A stretch of DNA of 22,640 bases, taken from a virus. A program made the translations under genes and the position numbers. Below the pieces are notes generated by a model. It was not told the DNA's origin. It ran no database searches and saw nothing but the letters and a program-made list of their open reading frames with translations. The first letter of the stretch is position 1; every line of letters begins with the position of its first letter. The stretch is taken from the IMG/VR virus record IMGVR_UViG_3300025927_000031, positions 1 through 22,640 of that record, one strand, 5' to 3'. Shown here piece after piece: positions 11,876 to 18,681 of the stretch.

Positions 11876-13588
11876 TCAGGTTCCTCCTACGAACATCATC
11901 TGATATTTTTTCGACGACGACGGATTGCGGGACATCAGTTCGACCGCGTTGAACGTTGCCATCAGCGGGTCGATTTTCCCGGACCCGGACGCCTGTTTCG
12001 TGATGATGATGGCGTTCCCGCGCGGCTCCACGCGCGCGTTCTCCGCGCACCAGCGTGTCAGCGGCTGACAGGCGGTTTCCATCGACCCTTCGGCCAGCTT
12101 GCGTTCGCAGGTGCGGATCGCCGCGGTCAGGCGCCAGCCCTGCGGGATGCCGACAATCTGGCAATCCTTGTCCTCCGGTCCGCGCAGGCCGCGCCCGATC
12201 AGTTCGTCGATGATCCCGCCGATCGCCGCCTGGTCGATGCCTACTTTCCACAGCTTGCCGGACACCATGACCTGTTCGACCACGTCCCCGACCTGTTCGA
12301 CGTCATCGCCGATCGTTTTGACGATCACCAGGTCGCCGTCGGCTTCAAAATCCCGGTATATCGCGATGGCATCCTTGTTGCGTTCCAGGGCGATTTCGTG
12401 GAACCAGGCTTTCGACCAGGTCAGCCACTTGCTATCGCCCGTGCGCCCACACACCGTCAAAGCCAGCATATCGTCCAATCCACCGCCGTCGATCCCGACG
12501 ACCAACACGTCGGCTTGTTCGATCAACGTGGCCAGGTCATGCGTGCCGGCGCTCTTGCGCCAGTATTTCGCGCCGACCCAGTGATCGCTGTGCAGCGCCA
12601 GGCCGATTTCGATGTTTAGGTGCTGCGATGCCCAGCGCCTGACTTCTTCCTCACCCGATGAAACGGCGCTCGCGAAATCTTCTTCCAGGCGCGTGACCGT
12701 GATCGACCGCCCGCGGTTCGGATTGACCATGCCCCAGTTTTTCGGTTCGCGCCAGGCGCCCGATTTGACCATTGCCGGCGGAAATTCATACAGCAGCGGC
12801 AGCAGTTTCAAACGAGCCGCACCGTCGCGGACCTTGCGCGCCTTTAGAAGCTCTTGCCTAAAGACGCCGACCGGGACCCTTTCGGACTGTGTTGTGATGG
12901 TAATCATGAACGCTTCTGGCGAACTGATTAGACCGCCGCGCAATTGTCCCAGGACCCGGTCGGCATTCGCGTGTTCGGCAATGACGTGCAGTTCATCCAA
13001 CAGCACGCCCGCCGGCTTCGTTCCAGTTAGGACCGACGGATCGAATGACTTGATTTTCAAGCTGGACCCGTTCGGTCGAAACGTAATCGTCTTTTTATAA
13101 TCCTTGATGTGACACATCTTGCGCAGCGCATCGTCGCATTCGACCATGCCCAGCGCCTGGCTGAACGCCACTTCCGCGACCTGCTGCGTCGGCGCCACCA
13201 GGATGAATTCCGCGTTCGGGCGATCGCTGACGATCATCGCCGTGACCATGATGCCGGCGCTGTTCGTGGTCTTAGAATTTTTCTTCGGCACCAGGCAGAA
13301 AAATTCATTCACCGATCGGTGCGTGCCGTCCCAGCTCCCGAACACCGCGGCCACCAGGTCCTTAAACCAGTCCCCGCCGGCCTCCCCGAACGTCGGCTGA
13401 CCGCTGACGTCAGGCAGCCTTAGCAGGTCGAAAATGGACCGCGCACGCTGCGCACGCGCCAGGTCCAGCCGCAGGCCCTTGGGCATCAGTGAGTCGCCGT
13501 TGCGGATGCGCTGTTCCCAGTCCACGCACGACAGGTCCGGCGTCGCGACGAAGCTGGGCGCCGCCTTTGGCTTCCGGGCGCCCCTCAT
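11876..13588 (-). CDS. terL: Terminase large subunit (Terminase_1 type)
   Basis: The ATG at 13588 overlaps the small-subunit stop (ATGA), giving 570 residues; 16 further in-frame upstream codons are unlikely. The N-terminal ATPase has Walker A VPKKNSKTT (residues about 100-108), Walker B GVLLDELHV (about 194-202), and a coupling-like ITTQSE (231-236). The C-terminal RNase H-like nuclease begins VLVVGIDGGGLDDMLAL (361-377). Further acidic positions are at WKVGIDQAAIGGIIDEL and DPLMATFNAVELMSRN. It translocates DNA into the prohead and cuts concatemers. The PKKNxK-type Walker A and total length are typical of HK97-like, often cos-type, terminases. Confidence 0.96.
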   Translation of the reverse strand: MRGARKPKAAPSFVATPDLSCVDWEQRIRNGDSLMPKGLRLDLARAQRARSIFDLLRLPDVSGQPTFGEAGGDWFKDLVAAVFGSWDGTHRSVNEFFCLVPKKNSKTTNSAGIMVTAMIVSDRPNAEFILVAPTQQVAEVAFSQALGMVECDDALRKMCHIKDYKKTITFRPNGSSLKIKSFDPSVLTGTKPAGVLLDELHVIAEHANADRVLGQLRGGLISSPEAFMITITTQSERVPVGVFRQELLKARKVRDGAARLKLLPLLYEFPPAMVKSGAWREPKNWGMVNPNRGRSITVTRLEEDFASAVSSGEEEVRRWASQHLNIEIGLALHSDHWVGAKYWRKSAGTHDLATLIEQADVLVVGIDGGGLDDMLALTVCGRTGDSKWLTWSKAWFHEIALERNKDAIAIYRDFEADGDLVIVKTIGDDVEQVGDVVEQVMVSGKLWKVGIDQAAIGGIIDELIGRGLRGPEDKDCQIVGIPQGWRLTAAIRTCERKLAEGSMETACQPLTRWCAENARVEPRGNAIIITKQASGSGKIDPLMATFNAVELMSRNPSSSKKYQMMFVGGT

Positions 13589-13890
13589 GCCGCGTCCCGA
13601 TTCGCCGACCCGATCGGCTTGACCAGGGCGGCCCATTTCCCGGTCCTGGCTTCGTGCAGTCCGTCAGCCTGGGCCTGGGCCTTTTTGCCGGGCGCATCGA
13701 CCTTCGCCGGCTTCGTCGTGACGTCACGCGTGACGGTCTGACGCAGGCCCGCACCGCGATGTTCCACGTGGCGCAACAGTGCCAGGGCCATCTGATCCCG
13801 CCGCGGCGCCGGCGCCCGACCGCTGTTCATGACGCCCAGCATGTACGCGACGACCTGCGCTTCGGTGGATAACTTGGACTTGCCGGCCAT
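13585..13890 (-). CDS. terS: Probable terminase small subunit
   Basis: A 101-residue protein immediately before the large terminase gene, ATGA-coupled to it. The N-terminal part has EAQVVAYMLGVMNSG and RRDQMALALLRHVEH, matching the short small-subunit group with 'xxYMLxVMNDxxxxxxRRDxMAxAxxxYxHxRL'. It should recognise the packaging site and load TerL. The C-terminal half is basic and Ala-rich. The DNA encoding VTRDVT (13717-13735) repeats sequences CGTGACGTCACG and TCACGCGTGACG that also occur in the origin-like array near 15.1 kb. The assignment rests on position plus this helical motif. Confidence 0.78.
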   Translation of the reverse strand: MAGKSKLSTEAQVVAYMLGVMNSGRAPAPRRDQMALALLRHVEHRGAGLRQTVTRDVTTKPAKVDAPGKKAQAQADGLHEARTGKWAALVKPIGSANRDAA

Positions 13891-14469: not shown

Positions 14470-14757
14470 CTATTGCGTGACGCCTTCCAGTTCGAACAAT
14501 GCCTGGTCGACGGATCGGACCACGCGCACGTCCATGCCGTAGGTTCGCATTCGATCGGACTGATCGCGCTGATCCTGGGACTGCTGGCGCTTTCCGGTTT
14601 TCACTTCCAGCCAGATGCTTCGACCTGGCTTGCCACAGTGCAGGTCTGGCCAATCCTCCACGCTGATGCGCGTGACCTGCCAGCCGCACCGTTCCAGTGC
14701 AGTGACGATCGGCGGTTCGGCGTGGTCCCTGAAGCCGACGCTAGTGCGCCGTGGCAC
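14470..14757 (-). CDS. VRR-NUC / PD-(D/E)XK-type nuclease
   Basis: A 95-residue protein with GTG at 14757, overlapping the end of the replication gene by 17 bases. It has RDHAEPPIVTALERCGWQV, the core WPDLHCGKPGRSIWLEVKTG (Asp38, Glu51, Lys53), and then QSQDQ and MDVRVVRS. This matches the small VRR-NUC fold (Asp...ExK) found in phage replication modules and related to Holliday-junction-resolving nucleases. It probably acts on branched or replicating DNA. The C-terminus ends VDQALFELEGVTQ. Adjacency to the replication protein and HNH nuclease fits a replication/recombination cluster. Confidence 0.85.
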   Translation of the reverse strand: MPRRTSVGFRDHAEPPIVTALERCGWQVTRISVEDWPDLHCGKPGRSIWLEVKTGKRQQSQDQRDQSDRMRTYGMDVRVVRSVDQALFELEGVTQ

Positions 14758-15550
14758 GGCTTAGGGCGGCGACGAATTGTGCGCGCAGGACGGGTTCGGT
14801 TTCCGGCGTTCGCTTCTGGATGGCTGACCAGCCGCCAGGTATGGCTTCAATCGCCGCCTGGACCGCTGCGGGTTTGATTTTGCCGTCACTGGCACAGAGC
14901 AATGCCCAGGCTTTGTTCGCTTCGGCTTCCTTCCCGTTCGGTGGACCTGTAGGCGAAACGAGCGCCTTATGGCGCACGTCGTTTCGCTGCGCCGCGGTAG
15001 AGTTATCCCCGTTATTCACGTTATCCACAGGCTTCATAATTCTTAATGACTCTGACTCTGACTCTGACTGTGTGACGTTACGGCGTGACGTCACGGAATC
15101 ACGCGTGACGTCCGTGACGCTGTCCTTTCCCATTTTCCGCTGCCGGTAGCGCCTGGCGCGTTCGGCCATGGTGTAATCCCGGTCCCGATATTCCATGAAA
15201 TTCAGCACTATGTAGCCGCCTTTGACCCTGGCCAGGCGACGGCCTTCGTTCGCCGGACTGCGGCTTTCGGGATCAGGATCGCACAGGCCGCGCAGGGCGC
15301 GCATACCTGGTTCGATGCCCAGCATGGCGCGGCGGATGATCCCAGGGCCGGCGGCTTCGATGAACCCGTACCAGCCAGCCGGCGCCTGCCAGCCGGTCGG
15401 TTCGTTCCTGTCGATTTCGAAGGTTTCGACGGGTTCGTCGAACTCCCTGGGCGTGGCCATTAGCAGCGCTGTCAGGAACAGCGATCGCGCGTCCGTGTTC
15501 AGCCAAACCGTCGAATCCAAAATCCCACAGTCCAGCTTCACGTATGGCAT
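14741..15550 (-). CDS. Phage replication-type protein (O-like), contains origin-like DNA
   Basis: A 269-residue protein starting at ATG 15550 behind GGTAGGGGACCGCG. The N-terminal 135 residues (MPYVKLDCGILDSTVWLNTD ... GGYIVLNFMEYRDRDYTMAE) match a conserved phage domain, probably helix-turn-helix DNA-binding, that sits with replication genes. Residues about 136-190 are a low-complexity linker with DSVTDVTRDSVTS, QSESESES and VDNVNNGDN. The C-terminal 70 residues are helical (NKAWALLCASDGKIKPAAVQ). The linker is encoded by DNA packed with DnaA-box-like and iteron-like repeats, as in lambda gene O, so I infer an origin-binding initiator. The codons of the linker (TCA, GAG, TTA, AGA) differ from the rest. 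An initiator role is inferred, not shown. Confidence 0.7.
   Translation of the reverse strand: MPYVKLDCGILDSTVWLNTDARSLFLTALLMATPREFDEPVETFEIDRNEPTGWQAPAGWYGFIEAAGPGIIRRAMLGIEPGMRALRGLCDPDPESRSPANEGRRLARVKGGYIVLNFMEYRDRDYTMAERARRYRQRKMGKDSVTDVTRDSVTSRRNVTQSESESESLRIMKPVDNVNNGDNSTAAQRNDVRHKALVSPTGPPNGKEAEANKAWALLCASDGKIKPAAVQAAIEAIPGGWSAIQKRTPETEPVLRAQFVAALSRATAH
15002..15120. other. Candidate replication origin: DnaA-box array, AT-rich stretch and iterons
   Basis: Three contiguous 9-bp repeats GTTATCCCC, GTTATTCAC and GTTATCCAC (15002-15028) include a perfect DnaA box TTATCCACA at 15021-15029. An AT-rich stretch (15033-15047) follows. Then come four tandem TGACTC-type hexamers (15047-15070). 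Next are four GTGACG elements (15072, 15085, 15105, 15114) with the palindrome CGTGACGTCACG (15084-15095). All lie inside the replication-type gene. The arrangement is that of an intragenic phage origin; function is inferred. Confidence 0.5.
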
Positions 15551-18400: not shown

Positions 18401-18681
18401 GGCTGCGAACTCAGTTCCTGCAGCCGCGCCAGGGCGATGTCATTTCGCAGCCAGGCTTCCTTCCGGCGACAGCGATATTCGGCCAATTTTCCAGGGGGCG
18501 GCGGCGCGTGTGGATAACGCTGTCCGGCCATTTCGTCCTTCATCCGTTTCGTCGCCTGCAATTCCAGGGCGGCGTTCCAGACTTCGCGCAGCGCGCGCAG
18601 CAGGGCGCCGGTTTTATAGTCGGCTGTAATTTTCCGACCGTCGCAGGCGCTGGCCATTAACAGCAGGTCATCTGGCGTCAT
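18397..18681 (-). CDS. Small early protein, member of a tandem MTxxD/E family
   Basis: 94 residues beginning MTPDDLLLMASACDGRKITA, then helical LRALREVWNAALELQATKRM, a Pro-rich turn (YPHAPPPPGK) and a basic helical end (CRRKEAWLRNDIALARLQEL). Its start lies four bases after the upstream TGA. Only the first dozen residues resemble the two following genes, so kinship is tentative. A lone perfect DnaA-box sequence (18509-18517) falls within its RYPHAP codons. Confidence 0.6.
   Translation of the reverse strand: MTPDDLLLMASACDGRKITADYKTGALLRALREVWNAALELQATKRMKDEMAGQRYPHAPPPPGKLAEYRCRRKEAWLRNDIALARLQELSSQP

Follow-up and report, generated by a model that had tools for sequence, protein, structure and literature searches.

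Within a 22,640-bp virus record, analyzed here at its full length (the window), positions 15002-15120 combine several kinds of short repeats with codons that are unusual for the surrounding genes, which raises the question of whether a replication origin is written into a protein-coding sequence. The first-pass annotation of this DNA, based on the letters alone, had proposed such an origin, with DnaA boxes and iterons in the manner of lambda O/ori, and selection acting on the DNA. By sequence comparison, we consider it likely, with a probability of about 0.75, that this stretch is the core of a phage replication origin and that the origin lies within the phage's own initiator gene, in the part that codes for the linker. 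The embedded origin is well supported, while the DnaA part is not. The features of the locus are as follows.

14741-15550, minus strand: replication initiator gene, with an N-terminal winged helix, a putatively origin-coding linker and a C-terminal module, assigned from the ORF, its relatives and hhalign
14741-14970 (approximate), minus strand: C-terminal module, the type of which varies between close relatives
14997-15076, unstranded: probable DNA unwinding element, made up of the array, the AT stretch and the 9-mers; the least stable 80 bp of the record
15003-15029, plus strand: three abutting DnaA-box-like 9-mers, TTATCCCCG (15003-15011), TTATTCACG (15012-15020) and TTATCCACA (15021-15029), with 2, 2 and 0 mismatches to TTATCCACA; only the last is perfect
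15047-15070, minus strand: hexamer array of tandem CAGAGT units (TGACTC on the plus strand), CAGTCAGAGTCAGAGTCAGAGTCA on the coding strand, read QSESESES
15072-15119, unstranded: iterons, namely GTGACGTTAC (15072-15081), GTGACGTCAC (15085-15094) and GTGACG at 15105-15110 and 15114-15119
15185-15550, minus strand: N-terminal winged-helix domain (about residues 1-122) in an AlphaFold2 model; predicted iteron-binding domain

The gene encodes a protein of 269 aa and lies among genes that include those for a terminase large subunit, an HNH nuclease and a MazG-like protein. As this protein (P0001) alone had no match in PHROGs and none above threshold in Pfam, its identity as the product of a replication gene had to come from relatives. 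These were collected by protein similarity, part of them with queries that included array-coded peptides, which introduces a slight bias, and the others with N-terminal peptides only. A profile of 38 N-terminal domains aligned with the replisome organizers of Firmicute phages (Staphylococcus phi11, Streptococcus SM1, and phages of Listeria, Enterococcus and Latilactobacillus) at an hhalign probability of 95.6% (E 1.1e-8, 108 columns). Only a few of the 38 members matched a curated replication family singly, at E up to 0.01; given this and the lack of a match for P0001, the protein is a remote relative of the phi11/SM1 organizers and not a member of their family. The evidence that it is an initiator working like a replisome organizer is strong but remote, and the gene name proposed in the first-pass annotation is upheld through these relatives.

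AlphaFold2 modeled the N-terminal domain as a winged helix with a mean pLDDT of 86.5. Its best matches among solved structures were CRP-type winged helices (Z ≤7.6 over 69 residues), which represent a common fold, and fold and sequence searches of the PDB with the initiator returned no specific relative. The viral structure matches of this domain included phage replisome organizers, DnaD-type proteins and one O protein; the O-protein match was weak (E 9e-3), and the sequence search matched no solved O structure. The winged helix is likely the domain that binds the iterons. Close relatives sharing this N-terminal domain carry 13 unrelated C-terminal groups, which suggests that the DNA-binding domain and the origin may travel as a unit while the C-terminal module is swapped. 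Three of the close relatives (L585, L593 and L594) have an ORF of 149-156 aa that stops directly past the winged helix and contains no array. In L005 (3001-3651 and 3660-3690), an HNH-type domain follows the winged helix, and an iteron-like GTTACCGTAACGTAAC is located just past the stop codon.

The motifs reported at 15002-15120 were all found there, including the three 9-mers and the AT-rich stretch. Among the four TGACTC hexamers claimed, three are exact (15047, 15053 and 15059) and the one at 15065 reads TGACTG, so that the count of four holds only with one variant allowed. The four GTGACG copies are all present on the plus strand (15072, 15085, 15105 and 15114), but the total is five, with one more on the minus strand (15089-15094). 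The rare codons of the linker are also real: codon adaptation reaches its minimum at residues 150-180, and in the other genes of the window TCA accounts for 16 of 277 Ser codons, GAG for 37 of 262 Glu codons, TTA for 13 of 372 Leu codons and AGA for 2 of 299 Arg codons. When the amino acids were kept fixed and codons were drawn from the window 20,000 times, three TGACTC copies arose in 4 draws and five GTGACG copies in 34, compared with 264 draws (1.3%) for a perfect TTATCCACA and 563 (2.8%) for the triplet of 9-mers. GTGACG occurs 36 times in the window as a whole, where 18 copies would be expected, and 0 of 100 shuffles reach 36; TGACTC is not over-represented, and TTATCCACA with at most one mismatch occurs 4 times against 1.7 expected, which is not significant. 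From the draws and the window counts, the TGACTC hexamers and the GTGACG iterons exceed chance, and the DnaA boxes do so only marginally.

Comparison of the relatives indicated what is kept in the linker. On the coding strand, the unit of the family's array is CAGANN, represented by CAGAGT in the window and by CAGAAG, CAGATA, CAGATG, CAGAAT or CAGAGG in others. Depending on the frame, the array is translated into AE, DT, SE or AD, or else into QK, QI or QM; in L145 it lies on the opposite strand and is read SVSVYV. In four close relatives (L570, L577, L591 and L595) the copies follow one another wholly or partly at 7-bp steps, which shift the frame so that no regular amino-acid repeat results (for example, SREQRAE). 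Chains of at least three CAGA were found in 39 of 62 non-redundant genes; with synonymous codons permuted, the number of such genes averaged 4.0 and never exceeded 9. Arrays defined by CAGA itself gave A-ending codons in 163 of 164 cases, a circular count that we replaced by one on runs defined on the protein alone: within [ASTP][DE] runs, A is the last base of 134 of 135 four-fold codons, versus 1127 of 4474 (25%) elsewhere, and Gln in Qx runs is encoded by CAG in 12 of 12 cases. A quick tree of the N-terminal domain, in which most branches are weak, implies 8 or more frame changes of the array, and the starred branches force only 2-3. The array is absent in the close relatives L578, L585, L593, L594, L598 and L005. 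Selection at the DNA level, as postulated in the first-pass annotation, is thus borne out for two of the three elements, the array and the iterons, which are kept in relatives that differ from one another in the amino acids and frame of the linker, the comparison that the first-pass annotation had proposed as a check. The comparison shows that the repeats are evidently kept for the DNA, with the Ser-Glu dipeptides as an apparent by-product.

The iterons are found mostly on the 5′ side of the array. The sites at 15072-15081 and 15085-15094 both match GTRACGTYAC, which has inverted symmetry, inside the initiator coding sequence. In 44 array-bearing genes, 163 GTNAC half-sites fall within 90 bp 5′ of the array and 4 within 90 bp 3′ of it, and the densest GTNAC clusters sum to 218, versus 128.5 (sd 4.4) under synonymous permutation. 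The 20-mer CGTCACGCCGTAACGTCACA is common to the window and L102, and Bacilli phages have GTAACGTTAC at the corresponding place, with an AGA-rich array immediately after it. In the window, about 1.3 kb away from the iterons, another GTGACGTCAC palindrome accompanied by one more GTGACG occupies 13717-13736, within a small ORF (13585-13890, minus strand) adjoining the terminase gene.

Beside the iterons lies the weakest DNA of the record. By nearest-neighbor stability, the 80-bp segment from 14997 ranks 0 of 22,561 and the 50-bp segment from 14998 ranks 0 of 22,591 in the 22,640-bp record. This DNA, which comprises the array, the AT stretch and the 9-mers, has the look of an unwinding element next to iterons, as at lambda ori (PMC5043065). 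In the relatives, the DNA of the array is weak but not always the weakest: a fixed segment from the array start falls within the weakest 5% of its own locus in 18-19 of 43 cases, and the median share of locus positions that are less stable is 5-7.5% on one fixed segment and 2% when maximized over positions. The purine content of the coding strand is 62.5% in the window's array, a value that is not extreme in the window, and has a median of 77% in the relatives. No switch of GC skew was detected at 15002-15120.

The DnaA-like 9-mers behave differently from the array and the iterons. DnaA boxes were found in 0 of 22 close relatives, and in the linkers of the wider family they occur at the background rate, which rules them out as a conserved core; the general role for DnaA implied by the first-pass annotation is not borne out. 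Since they are not conserved, the 9-mers are possibly a private accessory of the window phage, or chance. An oriC-like origin, driven by DnaA at the three abutting 9-mers, is accordingly very improbable, despite the fact that one perfect and two degenerate boxes abut inside the record's weakest DNA; a triplet arising by chance in 2.8% of draws and the lack of boxes in relatives both speak against it. Another perfect TTATCCACA is present at 18509-18517 on the minus strand, far from the array.

Three other explanations would dispense with an origin or assign the array another task. The GTGACGTYAC palindromes could serve as operators, bound by the initiator or a repressor for transcription control, with the array having no role in replication. 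Operators are typically palindromic, the closest structural match is to a CRP-like winged helix, GTGACG is over-represented window-wide, and GTGACGTCAC recurs at 13718. Yet the sites are some 430 bp deep in the gene, and in the relatives they are nearly always found directly 5′ of a weak tandem-repeat stretch that an operator would not need, so we regard this explanation as unlikely. Little credence can be given to the idea that the linker is simply a low-complexity acidic segment whose repeats spread through slippage during replication and persist for the sake of the protein. Tandem hexamers are indeed prone to slippage, most of the arrays encode acidic dipeptides, and hexamers of a control unit, AGACNN, also occur in unrelated acidic proteins; this idea conflicts with a DNA unit that stays constant while amino acids and frame vary (AE, DT, SE, AD, QK, QI, SREQRAE), and with a third base that is A in 134 of 135 codons.

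The array could also be a row of start sites for DnaG primase, as its complement NNTCTG presents a CTG every 6-7 bases. Gammaproteobacterial DnaG uses CTG as its start trinucleotide, and in the window's family CAGA stays constant while the neighboring bases vary. Among the few hosts compared, however, those of the Bacilli phages of the related family have primases that prefer CTA, whereas the arrays of these phages are largely AAGA or pure AGA (complement CTT) and not only TAGA, so that their complements are mostly CTT or mixed; the units of clostridial arrays are different again (TGAAAA, for example). Primase start sites would suit the proteobacterial-type arrays and fit weakly in phages of Bacilli and Clostridia; as an account of the array they appear improbable.

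For an embedded origin, the layout suggests the following sequence of events. The N-terminal winged helix of the initiator would bind the GTGACGTYAC iterons and thereby may strain the neighboring DNA. The adjacent CAGAGT array and AT stretch, judged from their position and from the lowest stability in the record, would then open as the unwinding element, and the C-terminal module would bring in a helicase loader or the helicase. The DnaA-like boxes at the far edge would be at most an accessory of the window phage.

Tandem hexamers were not confined to the family of the window. We scanned viral contigs for CAGANN, TAGANN and the reversed control AGACNN, each repeated five times with a 6-bp period. 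All three scans yielded arrays, those of CAGANN and TAGANN often in replication families. In random samples of 20 array-bearing ORFs each, 10 matched replication families for CAGANN and 4 for the control, which rules out a strict specificity of CAGANN for replication genes; rather, tandem hexamers are generally enriched in replication genes, with CAGANN itself only moderately so. Initiators of another family on genome contigs, mostly from Clostridia (L496, L509, L530 and L547), contain long hexamer arrays with units such as TGAAAA, read ENEN or NDND. We take tandem hexamers to be a general feature of initiator linkers, with CAGANN as the form found in the window's family and a unit that varies by lineage. 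The TAGANN scan also returned arrays opposite to the gene strand (L275, L279, L283, L294, L316, L345 and others), which read SISKSN or SNSNSN and are located directly ahead of the C-terminal domain. Five replication-type proteins (L391, L411, L438, L463 and L470) have PSPSPS linkers that correspond to an AGACNN array opposite to the gene strand.

The parallel with lambda O/ori drawn in the first-pass annotation, and the origin-like layout itself, are corroborated by inverted iterons next to weak DNA inside an initiator gene. The ori of phage lambda likewise lies in the initiator gene O, with inverted-repeat iterons beside a weak, strand-asymmetric stretch (PMC5043065, PMC5499656). It differs from the window in its elements: lambda has repeats of 19 bp as iterons and, as its weak region, an A+T-rich segment of 40 bp that is nearly all purine, whereas the window combines short sites of the form GTRACGTYAC with a punctuated array in which the CAGANN units measure 6-7 bp. 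The likeness between the proteins is limited to the weak structural match to an O protein. Organizers of the Staphylococcus phi11 and Streptococcus SM1 type are closer to the window, with a remotely homologous N-terminal domain and linkers in which GTAACGTTAC iterons are directly followed by an AGA-rich array, but their array unit is AAGA, TAGA or AGA in place of CAGANN.

Genetic evidence for an embedded origin comes from phage 80alpha, in which supplying ORF20 in trans does not complement its mutants and a plasmid carrying ORF20-21 replicates, which led to the proposal of an origin inside the gene (PMC5499656). Origins inside the initiator gene are also described for SPP1 gene 38 and lambda O (PMC5499656). 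A putative rep_origin is annotated inside gp20 in the 80alpha record, and in this annotated region, as in the window, repeats precede a tandem array, here of the ACTAATAAT type; both the repeats and the array differ in sequence from those of the window. ORF20 of 80alpha had no significant sequence match to the window protein or to phi11 Rep, and its layout is therefore a parallel by analogy and not that of a homolog. Iteron plasmid origins of the P1 and R6K type lie as a rule outside the initiator gene. They resemble the window in having iterons, a weak region and adjacent DnaA boxes (PMC5043065), but the DnaA boxes of the window are not conserved in its relatives. We found no description of the frame-independent conservation of the CAGANN array in the literature searched, mainly open-access papers. 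Origins inside initiator genes were known from a few model phages, and what is new here is the array with its frame-independent conservation.

Short inverted iterons followed by a tandem array form a layout that is kept at the DNA level across many uncultivated phages. Dozens of relatives suggest that odd repeats in such phage proteins may be translated origin DNA. More tentatively, and at less than even odds, the punctuated array, with a CAGA every 6-7 bp in any frame, might represent an undescribed, widespread element for unwinding or single-strand recognition that is read unit by unit by the initiator or the helicase-loading machinery. If so, the dipeptide repeats AEAE, DTDT, SESE and QKQK in many phage replication proteins would be translated origin DNA, and the origins of uncultivated and metagenomic phages could be found from protein sequence alone. 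The natural series of arrays, with 6-bp, 7-bp, mixed and reversed forms, would make it possible to explore which features of an unwinding element a replication machine requires.
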